DNA from: Tsukamurella ocularis
GTDB lineage: Bacteria > Actinomycetota > Actinomycetes > Mycobacteriales > Mycobacteriaceae
Assembly (NCBI RefSeq): GCF_024807615.1
Contig: NZ_JANUCJ010000002.1
Coordinates: 930,001 to 994,000, forward strand
Direction: 5' to 3'
DNA length: 64,000 nt
This document shows positions 31,297 through 62,600 of this stretch, piece after piece (the first letter of the stretch is position 1; the number at the start of each line of letters is the position of its first letter). The notes under the pieces were generated by a model, which saw only the letters and a list, made by a program, of their open reading frames with translations, had not been told where the DNA came from and did no database searches. The position numbers and the translations under genes are program-made.

Positions 31297-34200
31297 GTGA
31301 GGAATGAGGTAAGTGAAACCCGGGTGTGCGGAGAACCGGCACACCGCGAGCCGATCGCCGTCGTCGGCATCGGATGCCGCCTGCCGGGCGGTGTGCGCTC
31401 CGCAGAGGACTTCTGGAAGCTGCTCGACGAGGAGCGCGATGCGATCGTCGACATCCCCGCCGGTCGGTGGAGCACGGACCGGTATTACGAGTCCGAGCGC
31501 ACGCCGGGCAAGAGCCGGGTGCGCCGCGGCGGCTTCCTCACCGACCCGGTCGACGAGTTCGACCCGGCCTTCTTCGGGATCTCCCCGATCGAGGCGAGTT
31601 CGATGGACCCGCAGCAACGGCTCCTCCTTGAGGTCGCGTGGGAATCCATCGAGGACGCCGGGCTGCGCGCCGAGGAGCTCGAGCGCTCGCAGACCGCGGT
31701 CTTCACCGGGGGCTTCACCCTCGACTACAGCCAGATGCAGTTCTCCACGTCCGCCGCGGAGCCACCGACGGTCGCCGCGCACACTGCGACCGGTGTCGTG
31801 ATGACGATGCTGTCCAACCGCATCTCGCACGCCTTCGACCTGCTCGGGCCCAGCATGTCCGTCGACACGGCGTGCTCGTCGTCGCTGGTCGCGATCCACC
31901 TGGCCTGCCAGTCGATCTGGAACGGCGAGAGCGACCTCGCCCTCGCTGGCGGCGTCAACCTGATGCTCAGTCCGAACTTCACCGTCGCCGCTTCCACGGG
32001 CGGCTTCCTCTCCCCCACCAGCACTTCGCGTGCGTTCGACGCGGCGGCTAACGGTTACGTCCGCGGCGAGGGCGCCGCGCTCGTCGTGCTCAAGCCCCTC
32101 GCGCAGGCACGTGCCGACGGCGACCGGGTCTACGCGACGGTGCTCGGCACCGCGGTCAGCCAGGACGGGCGCACGAACGGCATCACGGTGCCCAACGGCG
32201 ACAGCCAGAAGCGCGCCATCGAGGCTGCGCTCGCCCGCGCCGGTATCGCCGCGGACTCCGTCGACTACGTGGAGGCGCACGGCACCGGCACCCCCGTCGG
32301 CGATCCGATCGAGGCCACCGCGATCGGCGAGATCTACGGCGCGGGCCGCCCGGCGGACCGCCCGCTGGTGATCGGCTCGGTGAAGACGAATTTGGGGCAT
32401 CTCGAGGCCGCGGCGGGCGTCGTCGGATTCATCAAGTCCGCCCTCGCGCTCGCCCACCGGCGTGTGCCGCGGCACCTGCACCTCGACACACTCAATCCCG
32501 CCATCGACCTCGATAAGCTGCGGATCCGGGTCGCCACCGAGTCCACGCCGCTCCGGCCCGACGGCCCGCTGCGCGCCGGGGTCAACTCGTTCGGTTTCGG
32601 CGGCACCAATGCGCACGCGATCCTCGAGTCCGTCCCCGTCGAGACGCGCGCCCCGGTGGTGCCCGCGGACGGCGTGCGCGACGGGGTGGCGGTCGTGCTC
32701 CCGCTCGCGGCACGCAGCGAGAACGCCCTCGCACACCTCGCCGCCGCCTACGTCGGGGTCGCGGCGGCCGAGGGCTCGGCCCCGCTGGCCGGGGCGCTCG
32801 CGCACCGGCGCAGTGCCCACCGCGCCGCGCGGCTCGCGGTGATCGCCGCCGACGCGACCGAAGCCGAGGATGCGCTGCGCACCGCCGCCGCCGGTGTCCC
32901 GCACCAGGCCGTCCGCATGGGTTCCGCACTCGCCGGCGCCCGCCCCCTCGCCTTCGTCTACACCGGCATGGGCCCGCAGTGGTGGGGTATGGCCCGCGGC
33001 CTGCTGCAGAACAATTCCGTCTTCCGCGCCGCGATCGAGCGCTGTGACGCCGCGATCACGCCGCTCGCCGGCTGGTCGCTCACGGCCGAGCTGCTGGCCC
33101 CGGAATCGGCGTCCCGCATGCAGGAGTCCGTGGTCGCGCAGATCGCGAACTTCGGTGTGCAGTGTGCGCTGACTCGGCTGTGGGAGTCGTTCGGAGTCCG
33201 GCCCGATCTCATCGTGGGGCACAGCGCGGGCGAGGTCGCCGCCGCGCTGGAGGCCGGGGCTATGACCTTCGACGACGCGATCACCGTTATTGTGCACCGC
33301 GCCCGCCTCCAGCACACGGCGAGCGGGGGCGGCCGGCTGCTGGCCGTCGCGCTCGGCGAGGCCGCGGCGCGGGATCTGCCCGAGGTCGCGCGCGGCGAGG
33401 TCGAGTTCGCTGCGATCAACAGCCCCGAGTCGGTCGCCCTGGTCGGCGCGCTCCCTGTCCTGGAGTCGCTCGCGGAACGGCTCGGCGCGGACGGCGTCTT
33501 CGCGCGCCTCGTTCCCGGCGACGTCCCGTACCACAGCCGCGCCATGGACCCGCTCGAGGCGGAACTCCGCACCGTCCTCGCCGGACTCGCCCCCGGTGCA
33601 CCGTCGATCCCGCTCTACTCGACGGTGACCGGCGCCCGCGTCCCGATGGACGGATCGGCTCCGCACGACGCCGAGTACTGGTGGCGCAACATCCGCCGTC
33701 CGGTGCTGTTCGGTGCCGCCGCCGGCGCGATGATCGACGGTGGCGCCGGGAGCGGAGCGAGCGGGCCGAATCACCCCGGTGCCGTGACCTTCCTGGAGAT
33801 CGGCCCCACGGCGGTGGTGGGCCGCGCGATCGCGGAGGTCGCCGCCGCCCGCGGGCAGTCGGCGACGACGGTCGCGTCGCTGCGCCGCGACGGCGAGGAC
33901 GCCGAATCCTTCGCCGCTGCACTGGCGGAATTGTGGGTCCGGGGCGTCGACGTGGACTTCTCCCCGCTCGTGCCGCGCGCACCGATGCGGTCGCTCCCCG
34001 CCTACCCGTGGCAGACGGGCCGGTACTGGTCCGAGGGCGATGCCGGGCGACGGGAGCGGCTGGCGGACACCGTCGAGCCCTATCTGGGCAACCGATCCGA
34101 CGGTGCCCTGCCCGGCTGGCGGCGCCTGCTGGACGGCACGGCGCCGCGGTCCCTCGCCGACCATGTGGTGCACGGCGCGACGCTGTTCCCCGGCGCCGGG

Positions 34201-36810
34201 TTCCTTGAGATCGCGGCGGAGGTCGCGCGTGACGAGTACGGCGCCACGGCGTGCACCTTGCAGGGCGTCGCATTCGAGACCGCGCTGATGCACGGCGGCG
34301 GGACCTACCTGGTCGATACCAGCCTCGACGCCGATTCCGGGCGGATCGCGATTCACGGCAAGGTGCCCGGCGCCGGCCGCTGGGCGCGGCACGCGACCGC
34401 GACGCTGCGGCCCGCGCCGTCGATCGCACCCCACGCCGAGGTCGCCCCCGTCGCGGGGACGCGCATCGACGAGGACGCGCTGTACGAGCGCTTCCGCGAC
34501 GCCGGCTTCGCCTACGGGCCCGCGTACCGCCTGCTGTACGACGTGACCGTCGGCGACGGCGCGGCGTCCGCGCGGATCCGCGCCGTCGCCGCCGAGCCGG
34601 TGGCGGATCGCGCGCCGATCCTCGAGCCGAGCGTCCTCGACGCGGCCTTCCAGCTGCTGCTACCGCTGGCCTTCCAACGCGCGGAGGGCGCCAAGCTCAT
34701 GCCCGTCGGCGTCGACCGCGTGGTGATCCACGCCCGGCCAGAGGGCCCCGTCGTCGCCCGGGCCACCGCCCGGACCTCGCCCGACCCCGCCACGATCAGC
34801 GGCGACGTGATCCTCGCCGGCGACGACGGCCGGGTCCTCGCCGAGGTGGAGGGCTTCACCGTCCGGATCCTCGGCGACGCCGCCGCGGCGCCGCAGCGCG
34901 TGGGCACCGAATGGGTGTACGAAGAGGCGTGGGAGCCGCAGCCCGCGGACGACGCCGAGCGCACATCCGCCGAGGGCACGTGGCTGCTCCTCGCGGACCG
35001 CACCGATGTCGCCGACCGCCTCGCCGACCGCCTGACCGCGGCGGGCGGCACCCCGGTGCTGCTCCACGCGGGTGCCGCCGACGGTGCCGTTCCGCCCGCT
35101 GACCGCGCGGCCCTGGCCGCCGCCCTGGACCGCGCCGTCCCCGACGCGGGCCTGCGGGGCATCGTCCACCTGTGGTCGCTCGACGCCTCCCCCGACGCGG
35201 CCGACCCGCTGCGCTGGACCGCACACGAGGCGGTCCTCTCCGTGATGCACCTCGCGGCCGAGCTCGAGCAGCGCGGCGTGGCGGCACCGACCTTCCTCGT
35301 CACCGACGGCGCGCAGCCCGTCGCGGGCGGCGTGTCCGCGGCGGGGCTGCTGCAGTCCACGATGCTCGGCGTCGGCCGGGTCCTGCACCACGAGCTGAGC
35401 GGGCTGCAGGCCCGACTCGTGGACCTCGATCCGGGCGACCGAGAGGGCAGCGCCGCGATGCTGTTCGACGAGCTCACCGTCACCGGCAGCGACGAGGACC
35501 AGGTCGCCTTCCGCGACGGCACGAGGCTGGTCGCGCGCCTGTACCCGTCGGCCCGGTCCGGCGGTCGGATCCCGGCCCGGATGCGCCCCGACGGCGCCTA
35601 CCTCGTGACGGGCGGCCTCGGCGCGCTCGGCAGACTGGTGCTCGTCGCGCTCGCGGAGCGCGGCGCGGGCCACCTGATCGTGACCAGCCGTTCAGGCCTC
35701 CCGGCGCGGGCGACCTGGGACGACCTCACCGATCCCGCACAGCGCGACGCCGTCGTCGCGGTCCGCACCGCGGAGGCGGCGGGCGCGACCGTGCACGTCG
35801 TGGCGGTGGACGTCACGGACGCCGCAGCCCTCGCCGCGTGCCTCGAACGGCTGCGGTCGGGCGGCGTGCCCGCACTGCGGGGCGTGATCCACTCCGCCGG
35901 CGCGGTGGACGACCAGATCCTCGTGCGGATGACGCAGGAACAGGTCGAGCGAGTGGTGCGGCCCAAGGTGCTGGGGGCCTGGGCGCTGCACGAGGCGACG
36001 GCCGGCGAGCCGCTCGACTTCTTCGCCCTCTTCTCGTCGATCTCCGCGGTCATTCCTTCACCGGGTCAGGGCAACTACGCCGCCGGCAACGCCTTCCTGG
36101 ACGCGCTGGCCCACTACCGCCGGGCGCAGGGGCTGCCGGCGCTGTCGATCAACTGGGGCCCGTGGGACGCCGGGATGATCGCCAGCCTCGGCCTCCGCGA
36201 GCTGTACGGGCAGCGCGGTATCGACCTCATCGACCCCGTGACGGGCATGGACCTCCTCGCGGAGCTACTCGGCTCCGGCGAGGTGCAGCAGGGAGTGGTG
36301 TCGGCGCACTGGCCCACCGTGATCGAGAGCTACGCGCTCACCCCGACCCTCGTCGCCCACCTGGGCCGGGCGGAGGGCGACGAGGAGGGCGACGCCGAGT
36401 CGATCCTCGAGCGGCTCGGCTCCGCCGCGGCGGACGACCGCGCGCCGATCGCCGCGGACGGGGTGCGGCTCACCGTGTCCCGCGTGTTGCGGATGGCGGA
36501 GGAACACATCCCCGACGACGAGCCGCTCGGCCGTCTGGGCGTGGACTCGATGCTCGCCACCGAGCTGCGGATCCGCGTGGAGCAGCAGTTCCGCGCCGCC
36601 CCGTCGATCGCCTTCCTCCTCGACGGCGCGACGGTGGCGACGATCGCCGCCGAGCTGCTCGCCACCCTCGACTTCTCCTCGGGCGACATCGAACCCGACG
36701 CCGAGGTCGACGACCTCGCGTCCCTGCTCGCGGACCTCGACGACGAGGCCGTCGCTGCCCTGCTCGCCCAGTCCGAGACCACCGAACCCAACGCCGGAGG
36801 CCCCCGATGA
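31297..36810 (+). CDS. modular type I polyketide synthase (KS-AT-DH-KR-ACP)
   Basis: 1837 aa, one reducing module. KS (~15-440): DTACSSS with Cys193, HGTGTP with His328, and NLGHLE with His368. AT (~545-860): GHSAG with Ser643; the specificity motif position reads VPYH (743-746), neither HAFH (malonyl) nor YASH (methylmalonyl). DH (~930-1190): HVVHGATLFP with His956 and LDAAFQ with Asp1115. KR (~1425-1610): TGGLGALG, Ser1581 and Tyr1594; VDD fits B-type alcohols. ACP: GVDSML with Ser1751. There is no ER, thioesterase or loading domain, so it should condense a supplied acyl starter once and yield a 2,3-unsaturated chain. The acidic tail may be a docking segment. GTG start. First gene of a coupled four-gene operon. 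Confidence 0.92.
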   Translation: MRNEVSETRVCGEPAHREPIAVVGIGCRLPGGVRSAEDFWKLLDEERDAIVDIPAGRWSTDRYYESERTPGKSRVRRGGFLTDPVDEFDPAFFGISPIEASSMDPQQRLLLEVAWESIEDAGLRAEELERSQTAVFTGGFTLDYSQMQFSTSAAEPPTVAAHTATGVVMTMLSNRISHAFDLLGPSMSVDTACSSSLVAIHLACQSIWNGESDLALAGGVNLMLSPNFTVAASTGGFLSPTSTSRAFDAAANGYVRGEGAALVVLKPLAQARADGDRVYATVLGTAVSQDGRTNGITVPNGDSQKRAIEAALARAGIAADSVDYVEAHGTGTPVGDPIEATAIGEIYGAGRPADRPLVIGSVKTNLGHLEAAAGVVGFIKSALALAHRRVPRHLHLDTLNPAIDLDKLRIRVATESTPLRPDGPLRAGVNSFGFGGTNAHAILESVPVETRAPVVPADGVRDGVAVVLPLAARSENALAHLAAAYVGVAAAEGSAPLAGALAHRRSAHRAARLAVIAADATEAEDALRTAAAGVPHQAVRMGSALAGARPLAFVYTGMGPQWWGMARGLLQNNSVFRAAIERCDAAITPLAGWSLTAELLAPESASRMQESVVAQIANFGVQCALTRLWESFGVRPDLIVGHSAGEVAAALEAGAMTFDDAITVIVHRARLQHTASGGGRLLAVALGEAAARDLPEVARGEVEFAAINSPESVALVGALPVLESLAERLGADGVFARLVPGDVPYHSRAMDPLEAELRTVLAGLAPGAPSIPLYSTVTGARVPMDGSAPHDAEYWWRNIRRPVLFGAAAGAMIDGGAGSGASGPNHPGAVTFLEIGPTAVVGRAIAEVAAARGQSATTVASLRRDGEDAESFAAALAELWVRGVDVDFSPLVPRAPMRSLPAYPWQTGRYWSEGDAGRRERLADTVEPYLGNRSDGALPGWRRLLDGTAPRSLADHVVHGATLFPGAGFLEIAAEVARDEYGATACTLQGVAFETALMHGGGTYLVDTSLDADSGRIAIHGKVPGAGRWARHATATLRPAPSIAPHAEVAPVAGTRIDEDALYERFRDAGFAYGPAYRLLYDVTVGDGAASARIRAVAAEPVADRAPILEPSVLDAAFQLLLPLAFQRAEGAKLMPVGVDRVVIHARPEGPVVARATARTSPDPATISGDVILAGDDGRVLAEVEGFTVRILGDAAAAPQRVGTEWVYEEAWEPQPADDAERTSAEGTWLLLADRTDVADRLADRLTAAGGTPVLLHAGAADGAVPPADRAALAAALDRAVPDAGLRGIVHLWSLDASPDAADPLRWTAHEAVLSVMHLAAELEQRGVAAPTFLVTDGAQPVAGGVSAAGLLQSTMLGVGRVLHHELSGLQARLVDLDPGDREGSAAMLFDELTVTGSDEDQVAFRDGTRLVARLYPSARSGGRIPARMRPDGAYLVTGGLGALGRLVLVALAERGAGHLIVTSRSGLPARATWDDLTDPAQRDAVVAVRTAEAAGATVHVVAVDVTDAAALAACLERLRSGGVPALRGVIHSAGAVDDQILVRMTQEQVERVVRPKVLGAWALHEATAGEPLDFFALFSSISAVIPSPGQGNYAAGNAFLDALAHYRRAQGLPALSINWGPWDAGMIASLGLRELYGQRGIDLIDPVTGMDLLAELLGSGEVQQGVVSAHWPTVIESYALTPTLVAHLGRAEGDEEGDAESILERLGSAAADDRAPIAADGVRLTVSRVLRMAEEHIPDDEPLGRLGVDSMLATELRIRVEQQFRAAPSIAFLLDGATVATIAAELLATLDFSSGDIEPDAEVDDLASLLADLDDEAVAALLAQSETTEPNAGGPR

Positions 36811-39800
36811 CCGAGATCGAAGACCGCCTGGCGGCGCTCAGTCCCGCCCAGCGCCGCGCCCTCCTGGCCCGGCTCGGGAAGGCTCCGTCGGCCGTGCCCG
36901 CCGCGGCGCCGATCACGCGCCGCGTGCGCGAGGGCGACGCGGTGCGGCTCTCGGCCACACAGGAGAACATGTGGTTCCTGGAGCAGTTCCACCCCGGCAC
37001 GACCATGCACGTCATGTCCGGCGTCGCTCGGCTGCCGATCGACGTCCCCCTCGACGTCTTCACCGACTGCCTGGCCGAGGTGATCGCGCGGCACCCGGTG
37101 CTGCGCACGCGGTTCGGCATGGAGGACGGCGAGCCGGTCGCCCTGATCGCACCCGCCGAGCGGCCCGAGGTCGCGTTCCTCGACGGTGTCGACGACGAGC
37201 GGATGTGGGACCGGTTCCGCGAGGACGCACGGACTCCTTTCGACATCGCCCGCGAGCCGCTGCTGCGGGCGACCCTAGCGCGCAGCGCCTCCGGCGGCAC
37301 GTGGGTGCAGATCACGCTGCACCACATGGTGGCCGACGGCTACTCCACCGGCATCCTCTTCGCCGAGCTGGGTCGACTCGCCACGGGCCGGCTCGTCGGC
37401 CGGCTGCAGCAACTCCCCGAGGTCCCGTTCCAGTACGCCGACGTGGCGCTCTGGGAGCGGGAGCGCGCGGAGGCGGACGCCGACGCCGCGGATATCGCCT
37501 ACTGGACCGAGCGGCTCGACGGTGCGCCGACCGCGCTGACCCTCCCGACGGACCACCCCCGCCCGGCCCGTCAGGCCTACCGCGGCCGCCGGACCGAGTT
37601 CGCGCTCACGGCCGAGCAGACCGCGGCGATCCGCACGTTCAGCGCCGAGCACGGCGTCACCCCCTTCGTGACGGTGCTCGGCGCGTACGCGGTGGTCCTG
37701 GGCCGCTGGTCCGCGCAGGACAGCGTCGTCGTCGGCGTTCCCGTTGCGCAGCGCTCCCAGCCGGGGTCTGAACAGGTGATCGGCCCGTTCCTCAACACGC
37801 TCGCGCTGCCCGTCGCGCTCGAGCCGGGCGAGACGGTCAAGGGCCTGCTCACTCAGGTAAATACCACTGTGCGCGAATGCTTCACGCATCAGGACGCGCG
37901 CTTCGACCGCGTGCTCTCGGCGCTCGATCTCGGCCGCGACCCCGCGCGCCCGCCGCTGTTCCAGGCGATCCTCAACATGCAGGAGGACCGCAGCGCGCCC
38001 GAGATGCATCTGCGCGACCTGTACAACGGCTGCGCCAAGTTCGACGTGCTGCTGAACGTCACCACCACGCCCACCACGATGACCGGCACTCTCGACGTCG
38101 CGGCGGACCTGTTCGACCAGGAGACCGCCGACGCGCTGATCGACTCGTTCGTCGCGGCGCTCGAGGCGGTGACCGCGACCGGGTCCCCTACGGGAACCGA
38201 GATCTCGACGTTGCCGCTCTCGACCTTCCCGGTCCCGGCCGACCTGCCCGCCCCGCAGCCCGCCACCCCCGCGCTCGACGAGTACGTGCTCGCCGCGGCA
38301 GGCGGTTCCGCCGACCGCACCGCGATCGTCGCCGGTGCGGAGCGGATCACGTACGCCGAGTTGGACGCCCGGGTCGAGCGGCTCGCCGCCCGGATCGCCG
38401 ATCGCCTCGATGCGCCGCCGCAGACGCCGGTGGGCCTGCTCCTCCCGCGGTCGGCGGAAGTCGTCGTCGCCATGCTCGCGACGCTCCGGGCCGGCTATTC
38501 CTTCGTGCCGCTCGACCCCGCCTATCCGGCCGAGCGCCTCGAATTCATCTGCGCCGACGCGGGCATCCCGGCGCTGATCACCACGGCCGGGAACGTGGCC
38601 GAGGTGCCGGGCCTGAACCTGCCGTGGATCGACGCGACCCACGTCGCCAACGCGCCCGCCGGGTCGGCCCCGGCCCCGTCGACGGAGGACCCCGCGACTC
38701 GCACCGCGTACATGCTGTACACCTCCGGCTCCACGGGACGCCCTAAGGGCGTGCGGGTCTCGCACCGCAACGTCGTCACCTTCCTCGAGGCGATGCGCGC
38801 CGAGCCGGGCATGGCACCGTCGGACACGCTGCTGGCCGTGACGAGCCCGTCCTTCGACATCGCGATCCTCGAACTGCTGCTCCCGCTCGCCACCGGAGCA
38901 CGGGTCGTCATCGCCGACGGCAACGACGCCCGCGACGGCGACCGGCTCGCGGCGCTCCTCGACGAACACGCCGTCACCGTCATGCAAGCCACGCCCACCA
39001 CGTGGCACCTGCTGCTCGACACCGGCTGGTCCGGCACGCGCGGGCTGCGGGCACTGTGCGGCGGCGAGGCGATGCCCGCCGTGCTCGCGGGGCGGCTCCT
39101 GTCCAGCGCCGACGAGCTGTGGAACATGTACGGCCCCACCGAGACCACCATCTGGTCGACGGTGCACCGAGTCACCGAGGCCGACGTCGCCGCGGGTGCG
39201 ATCCCCATCGGCCACCCGATCCGCGGCACCGGAATCGTGGTCGCGGACGCCACCGCCGCCCCCGTGCCCGACGGGGTGTTCGGCGAGCTGTGCATCATCG
39301 GCGACGGCGTCGCCCTCGGCTACCACGCGCGCCCCGAGCTCACCAACGACCGGTTCGTGACGCTGGCCGGGCCGGAGCCCGTCCGCGCCTACCGGACGGG
39401 CGATCTGGTGCGTCGATTCCGCGACGGACGGATCGAGTTCGGCGGCCGGATCGACACCCAGGTGAAGGTGCGCGGCTTCCGCGTCGAACTGGGCGAGATC
39501 GAGAGCGCGCTCGAGACCGCGCTGCCCGGCGTCCGCGCGATCGCCGCCGTGGACTCGGCCGGTGCCGCGATCACCGCCTACCTCGAATGCGAGGCGGAAC
39601 GCCTGGGCGACACCGGTGCCCTGCTCGCGAGCCTCCGGGAGACGCTGCCGCCGTACATGGTGCCGAGCGCGTTCGCCGTCGTCGACGCCTTCCCGCTGAC
39701 GCCGAACCGCAAGATCGACCGCAAGGCCCTCGCCGCCACCGGCGGTGCACCCGTGGCCCTGGCCGCCGCAAGCGGCACCGAGTACGTCGCCGCCCGGACC

Positions 39801-41252
39801 GATCTGGAGCGCGACCTCACCGCGATCTGGACCGACCTGCTGTCGTTGCAGGCAGCGCCCGGGGTCCGCGACGACTTCTTCCTCCTCGGCGGCCACTCGC
39901 TGCTCGCGACGAAGCTGGTCTTCCGGGTGCGGGAGAAGCTCGGCCGAGTGGTGCCGCTGCCCGCCCTCTTCGCGGGCGAGCTCACCATCGAACGACTGGC
40001 GGCGATCCTTGAGCAGGGCGGCGCGGGTTTCGAGAGCCCGTTGGTCCTCGCCGACGAGGTCGTTCTGCCCGAGCACATCCGGCCCGCACCGGGCGCGCCG
40101 GTGCGCAGCGTCACGGACCCGCGGAACCTGTTCGTCACTGGCGCGACAGGCTTCGTCGGCGCGTTCCTGCTCGCGGAGCTGCTGGACACCTCGTCGGCGA
40201 CCATGCACTGCCTGGTCCGCGCCGGCTCGCCCGAGGAGGGTTTCGACAGGATCCGGACGACGATGCGCGACTACGGGATCTGGCGCGACGCCTACGCCGC
40301 CCGGATCGTCGCGGTGCCGGGCGATCTGATGCGACCCCGGCTCGGCCTCGACAACACCGCCTGGGCGGAGCTGGCCGCCACCGCGGACGGCATCATGCAC
40401 TGCGGGGCCGACGTGAACTTCCTGCGGCCGTATCCGACGCTGAAGTCCGCGAACGTCGACGGCACGGTGCAGGTGCTCGCGCTCGCCTGCGACGGCCCCG
40501 TCAAGCCCGTGCACTTCGTTTCGACGACGTACGTCTTCTCACGGTTCTCCTATCCGCAGGACACCGTCTTCGCAGAGGACGACCGCAGCCCGGTCCAGGA
40601 CCCGCGCTTCACCTTCGGCTACACCCAGTCCAAGTGGGTGGGCGAGCAGCTCGTCTTCGAGGCCCGATCGCGCGGTGTGCCGACGTACGTCTACCGCACC
40701 GGCCGCGTCGCCGGCCACAGCCGCTCCGGGGCGTGCCAGCTCTCCGACTTCCTGTGGCAGACGATCCGGCTCGGCATCGCCCTGGGCGCGGCGCCGACGA
40801 TGGACATGTCGACCGACATCACCCCCGTCGACTACGTGGTCGGCGCGATCGCGCACCTGGCGCGGCAGCAGCGACTCGCGGGGCGCACGTTCCACGTCGT
40901 CTCGTCCGAGACCGTGGCCGTGCCGGACCTGGTGCGCTGGATGTCCGACTTCGGCTACGCAGGCGAGGAACTGCCGTTCGGCCAGTGGTGCGAGCGCGCC
41001 GCGGACCTCGCCGAACGCGACGGCGACGAGACGGCCGCCGCCCTGGCGCCGTTCCTCTCGGCGACACCGCTGGACAACATGCCCGATGCAACGTTCGACG
41101 ACGCGAACGTGCGGGACGGCCTCGCGGACACCGGCATCGTCTGCCCGCCGATCGACGGCGCGCTGCTGCGACGCTACTTCGATTGGTTCATCGACTGCGG
41201 CTACCTCCCCGCGCCGTCGTCCCTCGACCTCCCCGAGAGCGCGGCCTCATGA
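36807..41252 (+). CDS. nonribosomal peptide synthetase (C-A-PCP-reductase), glycine predicted
   Basis: 1481 aa. A short N-terminal helix (EIEDRLAALSPAQRRALLAR) looks like a docking piece. C domain: HHMVADG with His173. A domain: YTSGSTGRPKG and the final PNRKIDRK with Lys969; the ten pocket residues (684, 685, 688, 727, 750, 752, 774, 782, 783, 969) read DILQLGMIWK, one away from the Gly code DILQLGLIWK. PCP: GGHSLL with Ser1031. The C-terminal thioester reductase (~1105-1480) has TGATGFVG and the Tyr1272/Lys1276 YxxxK pair, so the product leaves as an aldehyde or alcohol by NADPH reduction. Its start overlaps the PKS stop (ATGA). Confidence 0.93.
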   Translation: MTEIEDRLAALSPAQRRALLARLGKAPSAVPAAAPITRRVREGDAVRLSATQENMWFLEQFHPGTTMHVMSGVARLPIDVPLDVFTDCLAEVIARHPVLRTRFGMEDGEPVALIAPAERPEVAFLDGVDDERMWDRFREDARTPFDIAREPLLRATLARSASGGTWVQITLHHMVADGYSTGILFAELGRLATGRLVGRLQQLPEVPFQYADVALWERERAEADADAADIAYWTERLDGAPTALTLPTDHPRPARQAYRGRRTEFALTAEQTAAIRTFSAEHGVTPFVTVLGAYAVVLGRWSAQDSVVVGVPVAQRSQPGSEQVIGPFLNTLALPVALEPGETVKGLLTQVNTTVRECFTHQDARFDRVLSALDLGRDPARPPLFQAILNMQEDRSAPEMHLRDLYNGCAKFDVLLNVTTTPTTMTGTLDVAADLFDQETADALIDSFVAALEAVTATGSPTGTEISTLPLSTFPVPADLPAPQPATPALDEYVLAAAGGSADRTAIVAGAERITYAELDARVERLAARIADRLDAPPQTPVGLLLPRSAEVVVAMLATLRAGYSFVPLDPAYPAERLEFICADAGIPALITTAGNVAEVPGLNLPWIDATHVANAPAGSAPAPSTEDPATRTAYMLYTSGSTGRPKGVRVSHRNVVTFLEAMRAEPGMAPSDTLLAVTSPSFDIAILELLLPLATGARVVIADGNDARDGDRLAALLDEHAVTVMQATPTTWHLLLDTGWSGTRGLRALCGGEAMPAVLAGRLLSSADELWNMYGPTETTIWSTVHRVTEADVAAGAIPIGHPIRGTGIVVADATAAPVPDGVFGELCIIGDGVALGYHARPELTNDRFVTLAGPEPVRAYRTGDLVRRFRDGRIEFGGRIDTQVKVRGFRVELGEIESALETALPGVRAIAAVDSAGAAITAYLECEAERLGDTGALLASLRETLPPYMVPSAFAVVDAFPLTPNRKIDRKALAATGGAPVALAAASGTEYVAARTDLERDLTAIWTDLLSLQAAPGVRDDFFLLGGHSLLATKLVFRVREKLGRVVPLPALFAGELTIERLAAILEQGGAGFESPLVLADEVVLPEHIRPAPGAPVRSVTDPRNLFVTGATGFVGAFLLAELLDTSSATMHCLVRAGSPEEGFDRIRTTMRDYGIWRDAYAARIVAVPGDLMRPRLGLDNTAWAELAATADGIMHCGADVNFLRPYPTLKSANVDGTVQVLALACDGPVKPVHFVSTTYVFSRFSYPQDTVFAEDDRSPVQDPRFTFGYTQSKWVGEQLVFEARSRGVPTYVYRTGRVAGHSRSGACQLSDFLWQTIRLGIALGAAPTMDMSTDITPVDYVVGAIAHLARQQRLAGRTFHVVSSETVAVPDLVRWMSDFGYAGEELPFGQWCERAADLAERDGDETAAALAPFLSATPLDNMPDATFDDANVRDGLADTGIVCPPIDGALLRRYFDWFIDCGYLPAPSSLDLPESAAS

Positions 41253-42637
41253 ACGGTTCGACGCCGCGCGACCCCGTGGAGCGAACCACGACGACGCTCC
41301 GCGAGCGGCGCCGCCGGACACCCGCGCCGACCGCCAACCCGCCGATGCTGACCACCGGTCGGATGAGAGCGTCCCGCCCGGCGCTGTCTGCTTCCCGGCC
41401 CATACCGACCGTGGCGCGACCGCTCCCCTCGGGTCCCGCTCGCCCCGCGCCGCCCGGTGCGTCCCGTGTGTCCCCGCCGCCGTCGCGGCCCGCCGCAGCC
41501 GCAGCGCCGGGCGCAACCGCACCTCCGGTCCCGTCCGCCCGTCCGCTCGGGCCCCAGGCGCCGCAGGGGCCGCACGGGCCGCAGGGGCCGTTGAACCCGA
41601 CGAGCAGACGAGCGCCACAGGCACCCGATCGGCCGCCCGCGTTGCCGCCGGCTCCCGCCGCACCAGCACCCCGGCCCGCGGGGCCGCCGCGGCCCACCCC
41701 CGGTGGCCTCCCCCGTGCCGCCACGGGACCCGGCGCTCCGCCGGTCATCAGCGTCCGGAACCTGGTCAAGAGCTACGGCGACGTACGCGCGGTGGACGGA
41801 GTCTCCTTCGACGTGGCGGGCGGCAGCACATTCGCCTTCCTGGGCACCAATGGCGCGGGCAAATCGACGACGATCAGTTGCATCACCACACTCAAGTCGA
41901 TCACGTCGGGCGAGATCCTCGTCGCCGGAATGCAGGTGGGAAAGCAGGACCTCGAGATCCGGCGCGCCATCGGCGTGGTCTTCCAGGAGTCCCTTCTGGA
42001 TCCGGTGTTGTCCGTCCGGGAGAACCTGGCGCTGCGGGCGACCTTCTACGGCATCGATGCGAAGACAACGAAGGAGCGGATCGCTGGGCTGTCGTCGCTG
42101 CTCGGGCTAGAGGAGTTCCTCACGCGCAGGTACAAGGCGCTGTCGGGCGGGCAGAAGCGGCGCGCCGACATCGCGCGGGCCCTGATCCACCAGCCCGGCA
42201 TCCTGTTCCTCGACGAGCCGACGACCGGTCTGGACCCGGACTCGCGCGACCGCGTGTGGTCGACGATTCTCGACCTGCAGAAGCGGCTGCGGCTCACCGT
42301 CTTCCTTACCACGCACTACATGGAGGAGGCTGAGCGCGCCGACCGCGTCGCGATCATCGACCACGGCCGGATCGTCACGGCGGGAACGCCGACGGAGCTG
42401 CGGAGCGCTCACGCGAAGGACGAGTTGCGGGTCACGCTGCGGGACCCGCGGCGCTTCGACCAGCGCTACGGCCCCCGAGCGCGGCGCAACGGCACCGAGC
42501 GGAGGATCACCGTCGAGTCCAGCGGCGAGGCCAGGGCGCTCCTTCGCGACTTCGACTCCGACATCGACGATTTCGAGTTCCGACACGGCACGATGGACGA
42601 CGTCTTCCTCGCCATCACTCGGGGAGGTGCGCGATGA
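41249..42637 (+). CDS. ABC transporter ATP-binding protein with Pro-rich N-terminal extension
   Basis: 462 aa. Residues ~1-165 are disordered, rich in Pro, Ala, Arg and Gln (for example LGPQAPQGPHGPQGPL). Then comes a DrrA-like cassette: Walker A GTNGAGKST, signature LSGGQKRR, Walker B ILFLDEPTTG and the switch His in LTTHYMEEAERAD. The C-terminal ~80 residues match the extra domain of drug/lipid exporters. The long leader is unusual; the ATG at 41249 overlaps the NRPS stop (ATGA), which supports it. It powers the permease encoded next and presumably exports the PKS-NRPS product. Confidence 0.9.
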   Translation: MNGSTPRDPVERTTTTLRERRRRTPAPTANPPMLTTGRMRASRPALSASRPIPTVARPLPSGPARPAPPGASRVSPPPSRPAAAAAPGATAPPVPSARPLGPQAPQGPHGPQGPLNPTSRRAPQAPDRPPALPPAPAAPAPRPAGPPRPTPGGLPRAATGPGAPPVISVRNLVKSYGDVRAVDGVSFDVAGGSTFAFLGTNGAGKSTTISCITTLKSITSGEILVAGMQVGKQDLEIRRAIGVVFQESLLDPVLSVRENLALRATFYGIDAKTTKERIAGLSSLLGLEEFLTRRYKALSGGQKRRADIARALIHQPGILFLDEPTTGLDPDSRDRVWSTILDLQKRLRLTVFLTTHYMEEAERADRVAIIDHGRIVTAGTPTELRSAHAKDELRVTLRDPRRFDQRYGPRARRNGTERRITVESSGEARALLRDFDSDIDDFEFRHGTMDDVFLAITRGGAR

Positions 42638-43509
42638 CGCTCGCGAACCTGACCCGGCGCAACGTCGTCGTCTTCTTCCGGGACCCGGCGGCGGTGTTCT
42701 TCTCCCTGCTCTCGCCCATCATCCTGTTCGTGCTGTTCTCCGCCTTCCTCGGCGGCGTGCAGACTGACGCACTGCAGAAGTCCCTGCCCACCGCCAACGC
42801 CGACGACGTCGACACGTTCGTCTACTCCTGGGTGATCGCCAACCTGGTGATGATCACCACCGCCACGACCAGTCTGTCTGCGCTGGTGGTGTTCGTGAAC
42901 GACCGGGTGGGCAATGTCTTCCGCGATTTCCTGGTCTCGCCGATCAGCCGGTTTCAGCTGATCCTGAGCTATCTGCTCGGCGCCTTCGTCGTGTCGACTG
43001 CCCTGAGCACCACGGTGTTCGTGCTCGCGGACCTCTACCTCGGCATCGTCCACTCGGCAGCGCTGTCGGTGGGCGCGTTCACGCAGGCCCTGGCGCAGCT
43101 GGTCGGCTTCTGCCTGCTGTTCTCCGCGATCTGGAGCTTCGTGGTCACGTTCATCGGTTCTGCCGGCGTGTTCACCTCGGTCGCGACGATCGTGGGCACG
43201 GCGGGCGGTTTCCTGGCGGGCGCCTACATCACCGTCGGCGCCCTGCCGAGCGGCGTGGTGACCTTCATGAACGTCCTCCCGCTGAACCAGTCTGCGACCC
43301 TGATGCGCGGGCCGTTCACCCGCGGTCCGCTCGACGCGCTCGTCGGATCCTCCGAGCCTGCTCGTGCGACGGCCGAAGCGGAGTACGGGCTCCTGCCGTA
43401 CATCGCGTCCGCGCACGTCCCGGCCTGGGCTATCTGGGCGCTGTTCGCCGGCCTGTTCACCGTCTTCGTCCTCCTCGGCGCCTGGCGCATCGGCCGCAGG
43501 ATCGGATGA
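42634..43509 (+). CDS. ABC-2 type transporter permease
   Basis: 291 aa with six predicted membrane helices (first at ~20-40, last at ~265-285) and the DrrB-type motif FRDPAAVFFSLLSPIILF at the N-terminus. The loop after TM1 holds a polar extracytoplasmic segment (TDALQKSLPTANADDVDTF). It overlaps the ATPase gene by 4 bases, so the two are made in equal amounts and form a two-subunit exporter. It is the last gene of the biosynthetic operon. Confidence 0.9.
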   Translation: MTLANLTRRNVVVFFRDPAAVFFSLLSPIILFVLFSAFLGGVQTDALQKSLPTANADDVDTFVYSWVIANLVMITTATTSLSALVVFVNDRVGNVFRDFLVSPISRFQLILSYLLGAFVVSTALSTTVFVLADLYLGIVHSAALSVGAFTQALAQLVGFCLLFSAIWSFVVTFIGSAGVFTSVATIVGTAGGFLAGAYITVGALPSGVVTFMNVLPLNQSATLMRGPFTRGPLDALVGSSEPARATAEAEYGLLPYIASAHVPAWAIWALFAGLFTVFVLLGAWRIGRRIG

Positions 43510-43735
43510 GCGGACCGCGCGCAGCTGGAATGGCCACAGCCGAGGCCTGTCCCCGTGCTCGGCTGCCGGGCCCGCATCATCAGAGACCGGTCGTACAGTT
43601 CCGGCGTGTCATCCCAGTGCGCGCCGTCCCTCCGATCCGTCTCACTTCAGTCGGCGCGGCGCGGCGCGCAGCAGGTCACGTCGCCGTAACAATGCGGCCC
43701 GAACCCGGAAACACCGCGCGGGCACCGTGGGCGCC

Positions 43736-46700
43736 ATGGATGTGGAGACGGTGTGCGGGTACTGCGGGGTGGGCTGTGGCCTCACCCTGCAAGTGCGCGA
43801 CGGTGCCGTCACCGGCTCGGTCGGAACCAAGCACCACCCCGCGAATCGCGGGCGGCTGTGCACCAAGGGCACCACCACCGTCGACCTGCTTACCGCCGGC
43901 GGCAGGCAGGCCCGAGCCGAACTCCGCGAGCACCGGGACGGGCCGCGCGGCACCGTCGAGCTCGCAGACGCGATCGCGGCGACCGGACGGCGCCTGCGGG
44001 AGATCCGGGACGAGCACGGACCCGATGCGATCGCCCTGTACGTGAGTGGGCAGATGACGCTGGAGGCGCAGTACCTCGCGACCAAGCTGGCGAAGGGCTT
44101 CCTGCGCACCAAGTGGATCGAGTCCAACTCCCGACTGTGCATGGCGAGCGCGGGAACGGGCTACAAGCAGTCCCTCGGTTCCGACGGACCGCCCGGCAGT
44201 TACGACGATCTGGATCACGCCGACGTCTTCCTCGTCACCGGCGCCAACATGGCCGACTGCCACCCGATCCTGTTCCTGCGCATGATGGACCGGGTCAAGG
44301 CGGGAGCGAAGCTGATCGTGGTCGATCCGCGGCGCACCGCGACCGCGGCGAAGGCCGACCTGCACCTACCGATCCGCCCCGGCACCGACCTCGCGCTGCT
44401 CAACGGCCTGCTCGCGCAGCTCGTCGCCCGCGGCGCCGTCGACCGGGAGTTCGTCGACGCGCACACCGAGGGCTGGGACGCCATGCCCGCCTTCCTCGAG
44501 GACTACCCGGTGGACCGCGTCGCCGAGATCACCGGACTCGACTCGGCCGACATCGAACGCGCGGCCGAGCTCATCGCCGGCGCCGCGAACTGGACCAGTC
44601 TGTGGACCATGGGCCTGAACCAGTCCACCCACGGCACCTGGAACACCATCGCGCTGTGCAACCTGCACCTCGCCACCGGCGCGATCTGCCGCACCGGCTC
44701 GGGCCCGTTCAGCCTCACCGGCCAGCCGAACGCGATGGGCGGCCGCGAGATGGGCTATATGGGTCCGGGCCTGCCCGGCCAGCGCTCCGTGCTCGACGAC
44801 GGCGACCGCGCCCGCACGGAGGCCCTGTGGGGCCTGCCCGACGGGACGATCCGCGCCGAGGCCGGCCAGGGCACCGTCGAGATGTACCGGGAACTGGCGG
44901 CCGGGAACATCAAGGCCGCGTGGATCATCTGCAGCAATCCGGCGGCGTCGATGGCCAACCGGTCCACCGTGATCGACGCCCTGCGGTCGGCGGAGCTGGT
45001 GGTCGTGCAGGACGCGTACACCGGCACCGAGACCGCGGAGTACGCGGACGTCGTGCTGCCCGCCGCGCTCTGGGCCGAGGCCGACGGGGTGATGGTCAAC
45101 TCGGAACGCTCCCTTACCCGCACCGCCGCCGCGACGCCGCCGCCCGGCGACGCACTGCCCGACTGGAAGCTGATCTGCCTGATCGCCGCCGAGCTCGGTC
45201 ACGGCGCCGACTTCGACTACCCCGACGCCGCGGCCGTCTTCGAGGAGCTCAAGGCCTTCCACAATCCACGGACCGGCTGGGACGTGCGCGGGGTCGACCA
45301 CGCGCGGCTTGCCGGCGGCCCCGTGCAGTGGCCCGCGGCGCCGGGCGGGCCCGACCGGAATCCGATCCGCTACCTGGACCCCGAGAACCCCGACCGGGGC
45401 CCCGTCTTCGCCACGCCGTCGGGGCGGGCGCGCTTCCTCCCGCGGCCGTACCTGCCGCCCGCGGAGCTGCCCGACGACGAGTACCCCCTGATCCTCACCA
45501 CCGGCCGCCTCGCACATCAGTGGCACACCATGACGAAGACGGGGAGGGTCGCGAAACTCAACCGACTCAACCCTGAGCCCTTCCTCCAGCTCCACCCGGA
45601 GGACGCGAACCGGTGGGGCCTCACCGACGGAGCGCAGGTACGGGTCTCCAGCCGGCGCGGCGGCGCGACGCTGCCGGTGGCCGTGGACGACGCCGTCCGG
45701 CCGGGAGTCTGCTTCGCCCCCATGCACTTCGCCGACGCCTTCCGAGAGGACGTGGCCGTGAACGCCGTGACCAACGACGCCGTCGACCCCGAATCCCTGC
45801 AGCCCGAGTTCAAGGTGAGCGCCGTGGCGCTCACCCCGGTCCCGGCAGACCCGCCTGCCCCGATCGACGTGCCGTCGTCCCCGCTCGCGGCGGCGCTCGC
45901 TCCGTACGTCTCGGGTCCTGGCGAACTGACCGCCGAGGCGTCCGGCTACCTCGGCGGCCTGCTCACGGGCCTGAGCGTCGCACCACCGTCCGGGGTGCCG
46001 ACGGTGCCCGACGACGCCCCGCTCGCGCCGATCGCGCGGGCCTGGCTGGAAGGTGTCCTGGCGGGCGTGTTCGGCACGACCGCCGCCGGGGTCTCGACCC
46101 CCAGCACGACGGTGACGCTCGTCTGGGCGTCGCAAACGGGCACGGCCGAGGGCTACGCTGCGGACTGCGCCGCGGCACTGCGCGGCGCAGGTATGACGGC
46201 GACGGTTCTCGGTGCCGAACAGATCTCGCCCGCACAGCTGACGGGCGCCGTGCTGTTTCTGGTCGCCACGACCGGCGACGGCGAGGCCCCCGACAACGGC
46301 GTTGCGCTGTGGGACGCGCTCGCCGGGGCCGAGCCCGGGGACCTGGGCGGTCTGCGGTTCTCCGTCCTCGGCTTCGGCGACCCCTCGTACGCCGACTTCT
46401 GCGGCTTCGCCCGCAAGCTCGACGCCCGGCTCGAGCACCTCGGCGGCGCCCGCCTCGCGCCCCGCGCCTCCTGCGAGCCCGACTACGCCGAGACTGCCGC
46501 CGCCTGGCTCCGCGCGGTGGTGTCCGCGCTGGATCCGGAGGCCGCGCCGCCGCCGCCGGCGACGCCCGAACCGACCGGTCACTCCCGGTCCAACCCGCTG
46601 CGCACCCGCCTGCTGGAATCCGAGCGGCTCTCCGGCGACGGTTCGGCGAAGGACGTGCGCCGCTTCACCTTCGAGCTCCCCGCCACCGCGCTCTCCTACC

Positions 46701-47650: not shown

Positions 47651-49319
47651 CCACGACCCGGCCGCGTCCTGTGACGCGGCCGTCGTCGTGGCCGGTGGCG
47701 ATGCCCGTCGCCTCGGGCGCGACAAGCCCGAACTCGTGGTCGGCGGCCGTCGGTTGCTCGACGCCGCGATCGACGCGGCCGGCGGGGCGCCGACGGTCGT
47801 GGTGGGCCCGCCCCGCGCCGTGCCGGAACACGTCGTCGTGGTCCGCGAGGACCCGCCGGGGGGCGGCCCCCTCGCCGCGGTCGCCGCGGGGCTCGCGGCG
47901 ATCCCGGCGGCAGCGCGCACGGTCGCGGTTCTCGCCGCGGACCTGCCCGAGGTGGAGCCGTCGACTCTGGCCCGCCTCGCCATGCTCCGGGCCGAGACCG
48001 GAGCACCGGTGGCACTCGCCGAGGATCCGCACGGCCGCCCCCAGTACCTGCTGGCCGTGTGGGAGACCGCCGCCCTCCGCTCCGCGCTCGCCGGGATCGG
48101 CAGCGCCGCGAACACGCCCGTCCGCGCGATCCTTCCCCCCGATGCGCCCCGACTGCGCCTTCCGCTCGACGACATCGATACCCCCGAGGACCTGGCGCGC
48201 GCCGAGAGATCTCCGCTTGCGGTCCGCCGACTGCTCCGCTCCGTCCTCCCCGTGCTCCCTGCGGCCGGCGGGCCACCGGTGCCCGGCGCCGTGCTCGCGG
48301 AGCCGCTCGTCGCGGCCGCGCCGTTCCCACCCTTCGACCAGTCCGCGATGGACGGCTGGGCCGTGGCGGGCCCGGCACCGTGGCGCCCCGTCGACGGCGC
48401 CGCGCTGGCGGGGCACGCCGCCCCGCCGCTCGCGGCCGGGACAGCGGTGCGGATCGCGACCGGCGCGCGCCTGCCCGCGGGTGCCGACCGGGTAGTCCGA
48501 GACGAGGAGATCGAACTGGACGGCGCCTTCCTGACCTGTACCGATCGGCTCCGCAACGACGTCCGGTCGACCGGCTCCGCGTGGCCGGCCGGCGCGACGC
48601 TCGCCCCGGCCGGCGCCGCGATCGACCCATCACTGGTCTCGCTGGCCCGCGCCGCCGGCGTCGCCGCGATCTCCGCCCGCGGGCCCGTGCGGATCCGCCT
48701 GCATACCTCCGGCGACGAGGTCGGGGCCGCTGGCCGCGCGGGCCTCCCCGAGACCGCCCGGGGCCCCGTCACCGCGCTCTTCGAGGCGTCCGGCGCGCGC
48801 GTGCTTCGCGGCCACCACCTGCCGGACGCGCCCGCCTCCTTCCGCGTGGCCCTCCTGCCCGACGGCGCCGACGTCGTCGCCGTCATCGGCGCCACCGGGC
48901 GCGGCGCTGCGGACCGGCTGCGAGGCGCGCTCGCCGAGGCCGGCGCGACGCTGCTCATCGACGGGGTGGACGTGCGCCCTGGCGGCTCTCTGCTCGTCGC
49001 GACGGTGCCTGACGGCCCGGTCGTGCTCGGCCTGGGCGGCAACCCGATGGCGGCGATGCTCGGGGCCGCGCTCCTCGCGTGGCCGCTGCGCGCGGCTCTG
49101 CTTCACGAGACCCCGCGGGCCGCCGAGCTGCTCGCCCTCGCCGATCCCAACCCCGACGACCGGTGGCGCATGCTGCCCGTCGAGCCCGACGGCGCGGGCC
49201 GGTGGCGCCTGCCCGCGACAGTGGCGACGCCGCACCTGCGCGACGCGGTCGGGCGCCGAGCAATCGCACTCGTGCCCCCGCGCGCTCGGCGCGGGGACCT
49301 CGTCGAACGGCTCGCCTGA
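47637..49319 (+). CDS. MobA-MoeA fusion for molybdenum cofactor synthesis
   Basis: 560 aa. Residues ~10-195 are a MobA-like nucleotidyltransferase (VVVAGGDARRLGRDKPEL, then LAADLPEVE), which attaches GMP to molybdopterin. Residues ~200-560 are MoeA, which inserts molybdenum (PFPPFDQSAMDGWAV, RIATGARLPAGAD, TSGDEVGA, LGGNPMAAM). The two steps are normally separate proteins. GTG 47637 overlaps the nitrate reductase by 14 bases, so the cofactor enzyme is coupled to the enzyme that needs it (Mo-bis-PGD). Confidence 0.9.
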   Translation: MTSTDHDPAASCDAAVVVAGGDARRLGRDKPELVVGGRRLLDAAIDAAGGAPTVVVGPPRAVPEHVVVVREDPPGGGPLAAVAAGLAAIPAAARTVAVLAADLPEVEPSTLARLAMLRAETGAPVALAEDPHGRPQYLLAVWETAALRSALAGIGSAANTPVRAILPPDAPRLRLPLDDIDTPEDLARAERSPLAVRRLLRSVLPVLPAAGGPPVPGAVLAEPLVAAAPFPPFDQSAMDGWAVAGPAPWRPVDGAALAGHAAPPLAAGTAVRIATGARLPAGADRVVRDEEIELDGAFLTCTDRLRNDVRSTGSAWPAGATLAPAGAAIDPSLVSLARAAGVAAISARGPVRIRLHTSGDEVGAAGRAGLPETARGPVTALFEASGARVLRGHHLPDAPASFRVALLPDGADVVAVIGATGRGAADRLRGALAEAGATLLIDGVDVRPGGSLLVATVPDGPVVLGLGGNPMAAMLGAALLAWPLRAALLHETPRAAELLALADPNPDDRWRMLPVEPDGAGRWRLPATVATPHLRDAVGRRAIALVPPRARRGDLVERLA

Positions 49320-59239: not shown

Positions 59240-62200
59240 TCACCGGGCTAGCCAACCCGCCGCGACGAAGCCGTCGAGGTACCGCTCGATCAGCGCACGA
59301 TCGAGGTGCGGAAGGTCACCGTGACCGACGTTCTCGGAACGCACGGCCTCCCGGAACCGGTCCGCGGTGAGCGACGCTCCCGCGCCCACGGCGGCGGGCC
59401 GAGCGAAGGAGTGCAACAACGGGAGCACCGACCGGTGGCGGTCCTCCGCGGGCAGGGCGCGTAGCGCCGCCTCGAACCGCGCGAGCCACTCGGCGTAGTC
59501 CGCGATCCGCTCGACTGGGCGGTCCACGGCGATCCAGTCGACGAAGTCGTCGAGCCCCGCGCCGTCCTCGGCGACGTTGAGCACGTGGAACGTACGGAAT
59601 CCGGTGCGGCCCGCGGCGCCGAGGCGGGTGATCGCCTCCGCGGTGAAGTCGACCGGCAGGCCGTCGTAGTGCGCGCGCGGCCCGCTCGGGTCGGCGGAGA
59701 ACGACGCGGGGGCGAGGCCTGTCTCGGCGATGCTCAGCAGCAGCCGGGTGAACTGGTCCACGGGGTTGTACTGCCCGCGGAATCGGCTGTGCGCCAGGAT
59801 CATGTTCGAGCGGAAGACCCGCACCGGCAGGTCCGCGAGGTCCGCGGCCTCGCGGAGCAGCACCTCGCCAGCCCACTTGCTCACCGCGTACCCGTTCGCG
59901 TAGGCCTCGGCACCGATCCGCCGCTCCGCACCCGCGACACGGACGTCGTCGTCCTCCACGAGCAGGCGGCCGTCGTCCTGCGGGACCACCGCCACCGTCG
60001 AGACGTAGTCGATCGATTTGCGGCGCACGGTGAGCGCGAGCCGGGCGATCTCCGCGGTTCCGACGACGTTCGGGCCGAACAGCTGGTCGTAAGGCAGCAC
60101 GTGGTTGACCATCGCGCCGCAGTGCACCACGTGGTCCACGCGGTCGCTGAGGGCGTCCCAGGTCGCGGCCTCGAGCCCCAGCGACGGAGCGCCGAAGTCG
60201 CCGACGACCACGTCCAAGTGACGCTCGGCGAGCGCCTCGAACTCCGCAGTCAGCGCGGGATCGGAGGTCCCGATCGCTTCGGCGAGGCGCCGGCGCGCGT
60301 CATCGACGTCAGCGGCGCGGACCAGCGCGACGACGGTCCCGTCGTGCGGGGCGACCCGGCGCAACCAGTCGAGCAGCAGGAATCGACCGAGGTATCCGGT
60401 CGCGCCGGTGAGCAGCACCGTCGCGGGCTCGCCGTGCGGCGCGGGGAGCGACGGGGCCGCCGCCAGCAGCGCGGGGTCGATGAAGCGATCGAGTCGCAGG
60501 TCGGAGGCGTGAGCGACCTCGGCGTCGGAACCGTGGATCGACGCGGCGGTGGGGGCCTGAACGCCGCCCGCCCGGACTTCCTCGATATGGGCGATCACGC
60601 CGCGCAGCGTCGCGGTGGGACCGACGATCGCCTGCACCGGGACGGGCAGGTCGTAGACCCCTTCGAGCGTCGTCGCGAGCGAGAGCGCGGACAGGGAGTC
60701 GCCGCCCAGGTCGAGGAAACGGGTGTCCTCGTCGAGCTCCTCGGGCAGCACGCCGAGGGTCAGGGCCGCCGCCCGCACGACGGTCTCCGCTACGGAGCCG
60801 TCGGCGTCCAGGTCGCGCAGGCCCTCGCGTCGGCGTTCCTCGGCGGCGTCGTACAGCGCGGTCAACTCCGCGCCGTACCGGGCGATCAGAGCGGGACGGA
60901 CGAGTTTGCCGATGCCCGATCGCAGTCCGTTCTCCTGGGAGAAGGGCTCGCGCTCGACGATCACGTCGCGGGGCAGCTCGTACGCGGCCAGGTCCTTCTC
61001 GCGGGCGATCGCCCCGAGGCCGTCGAGCACGCGACTGCGGGCGTCGGCGTCGGTCTCGCCGTCCGGGCCGGGCGCGGGGACCACGACGGCGAGGAGGTAA
61101 GAGCGCTCACTGGTGCCGTACAGGAAGATCTGGTGCACGTCGGGGCCGGCGGCGTACGTGGCCTCGAGCTGCGCGATCGGCACGAATTCGCCCTGCGCCA
61201 GCTTGATGACGTTGCTGCGGCGGTCGACGTACTCGAGGTGGTCGGGCGCGAGCTCCGCCATGACGTCGCCGGTGCGGTAGAAGCCCTCGTCATCGCGGAT
61301 CCGCTTGTCGGAGTTGTAGTACCCCGGAATCAGTTGGGTCGACTTCACCAGGAGCTCGCCGCGCGGGTGCGGGGAGTCGGTGACGAAGTAGCCGAGCTCC
61401 GGCACGTCGATGAGCTTGTACTCGGTGACCGGCGGGCGGACGACCACGCCATCACGGATGACGCCGCCGGCTTCGGTGGAGCCGTAGCCGATCTGGATGT
61501 CGATACCCAGCAGCCATTCCATGAAGGCCTGCAGTTCGGCGGACAGCGCGGCGCTGCCGCACATGGCGGCCTGCAGGCGTCCGCCGAGGACCCGGTCCCG
61601 CAGCTCGACGCGCGCGGTTTCGGTGTCGGTCTCGGCCTCGACGGCGAGGAACCTCTGGTGGATCAGCTCGCACACCCGCGGGACGAGGCCGATCGCGGTG
61701 GGGCGCGCGGCGGCGAGGTCGTCGAACAGGGTCGACATGTCCGACGCGCCGGCGAAGTAGCCGGTGCCGCCGGAGGCGAGACCGGCGATCAGCCAGTTCC
61801 GGCCATACATGTGACTCATGGGCAGGAAGTGCAGCAGCGATTCGGACGGCAGGTCGATGTCGACGATGCTGTCCACCTTGAGCCAGGCATCGGAGACCAG
61901 TTGCTCGGTGTACATCGCGCCCTTCGGGGTGCCCGTGCTGCCCGAGGTGTAGATCAGCGTGACGAGGGGGTCGGTGCCCGGCTCGGGCGCGAAGAACTCG
62001 GGCGCGGGCAGGGCCTCGCCCGCGAGGACGTCGGCCTCGATGCCCTCGTAAGCGGCGTGCTCGCCGTCGAAGACGACGACGCGGGGCGTGGCGGAGGACT
62101 CGGCGAGGGCCTGCTCCGCGAGGCCCACCTGGTCGGCGCTGACCGCGAAGATCGTCGGCTGGGTCTCGTCGAGGATGGCGGCGATCCGGGCGGCCGGGGC

Positions 62201-62548: not shown

Positions 62549-62600
62549 CCAACACACCTCATTTCACTACGGAACTCTAACTAACTCTTTCCCAGCTTAG

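Follow-up and report, generated by a model that had tools for sequence, protein, structure and literature searches.

Tsukamurella ocularis carries a real, conserved and orphan gene cluster built of parts of known kinds, namely a stand-alone polyketide synthase (PKS), a nonribosomal peptide synthetase (NRPS) ending in a thioester reductase, and an ABC exporter. Our best explanation, to which we give an even chance of being right, is a genus-level natural-product operon in which an iterative PKS and a glycine NRPS would yield an exported alcohol of the N-(poly)enoyl-ethanolamine type. The window is the whole stretch of DNA that we analyzed, 64,000 nucleotides of the T. ocularis contig NZ_JANUCJ010000002.1, and the features relevant here are listed below in window coordinates.

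31297..36810, + strand, PKS, KS-AT-DH-KR-ACP, 1837 aa, without loading domain and without ER, start codon uncertain
31348..32625, + strand, KS domain (C193, H328, H368)
32953..33951, + strand, AT domain (GHSAGE and PYHS motifs)
34117..34887, + strand, DH domain (HxxxGxxxxP at 956, DxxxQ at 1115)
35593..36168, + strand, KR domain (catalytic S/Y/N, VDD motif)
36463..36654, + strand, ACP (S1751); a conserved acidic C-terminal tail comes after it
36807..41252, + strand, NRPS, C-A-PCP-R, 1481 aa (Pfam/NCBIfam)
36939..38213, + strand, condensation domain (Pfam)
38298..39731, + strand, adenylation domain (code DILQLGMIWK, glycine)
39813..40007, + strand, PCP (S1031)
40128..41216, + strand, terminal thioester reductase (R) domain, MxaA-like (Y1272xxxK1276)
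41249..42637, + strand, DrrA-like ABC ATPase with a proline-rich (29%) N-terminal extension of ~165 aa
42634..43509, + strand, ABC-2 permease (Pfam), present in 11 of 16 genomes
43510..43566, + strand, relic (~57 bp) left from an LLM-class oxidoreductase gene (3' end), which close relatives retain intact

A preliminary description of this DNA had placed four genes in line, each stop overlapping the next start by 4 bases, and had proposed their domain order; open reading frames and Pfam bear out the first point, and Pfam and NCBIfam profiles the second. The PKS, NRPS, DrrA-like ATPase, and ABC-2 permease genes share the forward strand and are joined by successive 4-base overlaps that read ATGA. 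Profile matches assign KS, AT, DH, KR, and ACP domains to gene 1, C, A, PCP, and a NAD_binding_4 thioester reductase to gene 2, an ABC ATPase to gene 3, and an ABC-2 permease to gene 4. The catalytic residues of KS, AT, DH, KR, ACP, PCP, and R are all present and conserved. The PKS may start at the GTG at 31297 or later, with homology from about codon 17.

Upstream, the operon is flanked by an ABC-F ATPase gene and NAD-glutamate dehydrogenase, and downstream by genes for nitrate/nitrite assimilation; no further biosynthetic gene was seen among the neighbors scanned, and a sigma-70 scan returned no promoter. Genes for an MbtH-like protein and a phosphopantetheinyl transferase are present in the genome, outside the operon. 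An open reading frame at 43506–44045, which overlaps the permease gene by 4 bases, was rejected as a fifth operon gene: it reads out of frame into the nitrate reductase gene and is in part the relic of the lost LLM gene, hence spurious. Elsewhere in the window lie a carboxylic acid reductase gene (59240–62557, − strand) that scores above its NCBIfam cut-off and, within the nitrate-assimilation gene region, a 90-base tRNA-Pro(cgg) called by ARAGORN (47682–47771), which may be false.

Full-length NRPS orthologues, at 79–100% identity, occur in 10 of 16 Tsukamurella genomes (T. ocularis included), and the nearest named match is that of T. tyrosinosolvens (90%). In an eleventh genome (G014, locus L041) the NRPS is in pieces and the PKS alignment is broken, both being read in several frames; this fragmented copy may reflect decay or an error of sequencing or assembly. 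These 11 genomes, and none of the other five, also have the permease gene. Pairwise omega for each of the four genes against four orthologues lies between 0.11 and 0.27, and all four are under purifying selection. Because of these orthologues and omega values, we do not regard the operon as a chance arrangement. Among genomes without it, the gap between the ABC-F and nitrate reductase genes is ~295 bp in G012 and ~1.6 kb, with no operon genes inside, in G008 and G009. Integrase genes of two related types lie directly upstream of the operon at four loci (L001, 7853–8914; L033, 17013–18071; L036, 3013–4065; L039, 10917–11969), accompanied in L001 by phage-like genes, and the site next to the ABC-F gene may be a hot spot of integration. 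When the R domain was used to look for wider spread in samples taken from the order, class, and phylum, no match outside Tsukamurella exceeded 46%.

The preliminary description spoke of a four-gene operon. Four genes are indeed present here, but this form is probably not ancestral in the lineage, having probably been reduced from five, the number that the closest relative has. In L001, L032, and L033 an intact LLM-class gene follows the permease gene and precedes nitrate reductase, and its protein scores just under the cut-off of an F420-dependent LLM family. Since the ~57-bp relic remains in the window, we conclude that T. ocularis has lost the gene; elsewhere in its genome, a search for it found paralogues of 26–38% only.

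For the PKS, a single round of extension on a starter acyl chain had been proposed. This found no support: the enzyme lacks a loading module, and it groups with KS-AT-DH-KR-ACP PKSs that are iterative or stand alone. In a KS tree, the nearest sequence to the window KS is that of the Actinobacteria MAG clean1703 (L079), and the Tsukamurella and MAG sequences, mycobacterial stand-alone PKSs, and tetramate-type PKSs form one group, whose support (bootstrap 96, SH-aLRT 80) is moderate among references picked by similarity. Outside Tsukamurella, the three full-length plasmid PKSs that match best sit in clusters with sterol-desaturase and FAD-oxidoreductase genes, the label "tetramate-type" for matched clusters denoting gene content alone and not products. 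A PYHS/T motif is present in the AT of the window PKS and of its KS-tree relatives alike and, because PYHS is common to tetramate-type PKSs, the AT is probably malonyl-specific. The KS-AT-DH-KR-ACP set of the tetramate class has been proposed to use malonyl-CoA iteratively to make polyene chains (PMC8632820). Taken together, the missing loading domain, the KS grouping with tetramate-type and stand-alone PKSs, and the AT motif lead us to favor iterative synthesis of a short polyene over a single extension. The acidic tail that follows the ACP is likely to serve in docking.

The predicted specificity of the NRPS for glycine holds: with code positions mapped by eye on standard motifs, the ten-residue code is an exact published glycine code, reported for four Gly-activating domains in a survey (PMC12283262). 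The code is invariant across ten aligned Tsukamurella sequences. Reductive release, also proposed earlier, agrees with the C-A-PCP-R order and SDR-type YxxxK that we found. Reductases of PKS and NRPS systems give an aldehyde via 2 electrons or an alcohol via 2+2 (PMC13303079). When compared with solved relatives, the R domain matches MxaA best (266 bits, with mycobacterial Nrp at 104 and AusA at 56). MxaA of the myxalamid pathway reportedly releases an N-enoyl amino alcohol (Barajas et al. 2015, cited in PMC13303079). Because this best solved relative makes alcohols, we favor an N-acyl-ethanolamine-type alcohol over an aldehyde, R-domain sequence being no strict predictor of 2 versus 4 electrons. 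Of the equal rank that the preliminary description gave to aldehyde and ethanolamide, only the alcohol option is retained as favored.

An exporter was correctly recognized as linked, the ABC ATPase and ABC-2 permease genes both belonging to the operon. NCBIfam cut-offs are not reached (258 of 312 bits for DrrA, 26 of 223 bits for DrrB), and the permease shows a weak likeness to DrrB. The ATPase extension (window 41249–41743) evolves fast and is kept in the orthologues measured, at 117–168 aa and 24–29% proline, whereas the mycobacterial-type ATPases compared are without it. Export of the product by this DrrAB-type transporter is what the gene content would suggest; immediate export, and a role as protease inhibitor or signal, are speculation.

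Beyond the genus, MAG L079 carries the same PKS-NRPS pair, at 51% identity each and with a 4-base overlap, and its A-domain code differs at one position from the glycine code of the window (I782V). There, however, an MFS exporter, a zinc alcohol dehydrogenase (ADH)-like protein, and a lone A domain stand in place of the ABC genes. At eight loci from one genus of the same family (L177–L182, L185, and L186), which we infer to be Mycobacterium on a basis that includes NCBIfam matches, a PKS adjoins a DrrA-like ATPase without an NRPS. These stand-alone PKSs have the architecture of the window PKS at 40–42% identity. For L177, L179, and L186 the gene order was read and includes a permease, with 4-base overlaps as well in L177 and L179; a comparison of mycobacterial and window permeases gave no significant match, and no relation was detected. 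A halogenase-like flavoprotein gene lies upstream in two of the loci, L177 and L181. On a plasmid of Deinococcus sp. QL22 (L160), genes for a PKS, an adenylation protein, a thioester-reductase protein, and a class III aminotransferase stand in a row, constituting another PKS-NRPS cluster with reductive release.

Three other readings of the operon were weighed. The PKS could take a fatty acyl starter in trans from primary metabolism and extend and reduce it once to a 2-enoyl chain, to which glycine would be added before release as glycinal or ethanolamide. The operon has one PKS module only, a separate KS may also accept a FAS or acyl-CoA starter once, and since there is no loading domain, the chain must begin from a starter or by decarboxylative priming whether or not the enzyme iterates. 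Yet acyl-AMP ligase is absent from the genes scanned beside the operon, and the KS falls with those of iterative tetramate-type PKSs and not with the assembly-line KSs sampled, so we judge single extension unlikely.

Two-electron release, by which an N-acyl-glycinal would be exported or tailored while other enzymes (the LLM oxidoreductase of some species, or the zinc alcohol dehydrogenase-like protein of the MAG) oxidize, reduce, or condense it, seems to us somewhat unlikely. Oxidoreductase genes do adjoin homologous PKS-NRPS pairs, and 2-electron R domains exist (PMC13303079), but the best solved relative of this R domain forms an alcohol, and in T. ocularis the LLM gene has been lost while the other four remain intact. 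It is improbable, in our estimation, that the product is instead a pigment-like or surface-active polyene lipid of the cell envelope, following the logic of granadaene, and not a diffusible molecule; in keeping with it, an iterative-type PKS adjoins an ABC exporter both here and in the mycobacterial loci, and this reading is compatible with the best explanation.

Under that best explanation, exported N-(poly)enoyl-ethanolamine synthesis, the stand-alone PKS would iterate on malonyl-CoA, using its KR and DH in the absence of an ER, and leave on the ACP a short polyenoyl chain (at least 2-enoyl). The NRPS would activate glycine and join it to this chain, and the MxaA-like R domain with NADPH would free the N-acyl-glycyl thioester, a glycinal intermediate going on to the ethanolamine-type alcohol that the DrrAB-type transporter would export. 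The LLM-class oxidoreductase may tailor the product in some species. A broader proposal is that most of the Tsukamurella genomes sampled, together with one or more other actinobacteria, use a split iterative polyene PKS and a reductive-release glycine NRPS to make and export N-polyenoyl-ethanolamines (or glycinals), a class without a described product; we hold it at slightly less than an even chance. The literature searched contained no description of an equivalent system or product for this gene set, in agreement with the earlier statement that no described actinobacterial system of this exact form was known, and nothing relevant on N-acyl-ethanolamine PKS-NRPS systems. If true, the proposal would define a compact system turning malonyl-CoA, glycine, and NADPH into one exported lipid amide, and would offer a route by which bacteria make N-acyl-ethanolamine-like molecules as well as a small model of hand-over from an iterative PKS to a reductive-release NRPS. 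It would also tie this conserved, unexplained trait of Tsukamurella to mycobacterial PKS-exporter loci.

Each part of the operon has counterparts in known systems. Polycyclic tetramate macrolactam PKS-NRPSs (ikarugamycin, HSAF, and frontalamide type) share the KS-AT-DH-KR-ACP set at about 40–42% identity, a single C-A-PCP after the PKS, the KS grouping, and PYHS in the AT. Those systems, however, use a fused protein, ornithine, TE-type release, and desaturase/oxidoreductases, whereas the window has a separate NRPS, a glycine code, an R domain, an ABC exporter, and other neighbors in place of a C-A(Orn)-PCP-TE fusion beside desaturase/FAD-oxidoreductase genes. DrrAB exporters accompany lipid PKS loci such as that of PDIM, and here too a PKS operon runs into DrrA/DrrB-type ABC genes, although these score under the curated DrrA and DrrB cut-offs and the ATPase bears a proline-rich tail. 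The C-A-PCP-R organization is that of MxaA, at the end of the myxalamid PKS-NRPS line of Stigmatella aurantiaca; there alanine is added after a long modular PKS line, while in Tsukamurella it is glycine, following one stand-alone PKS and with a linked exporter.
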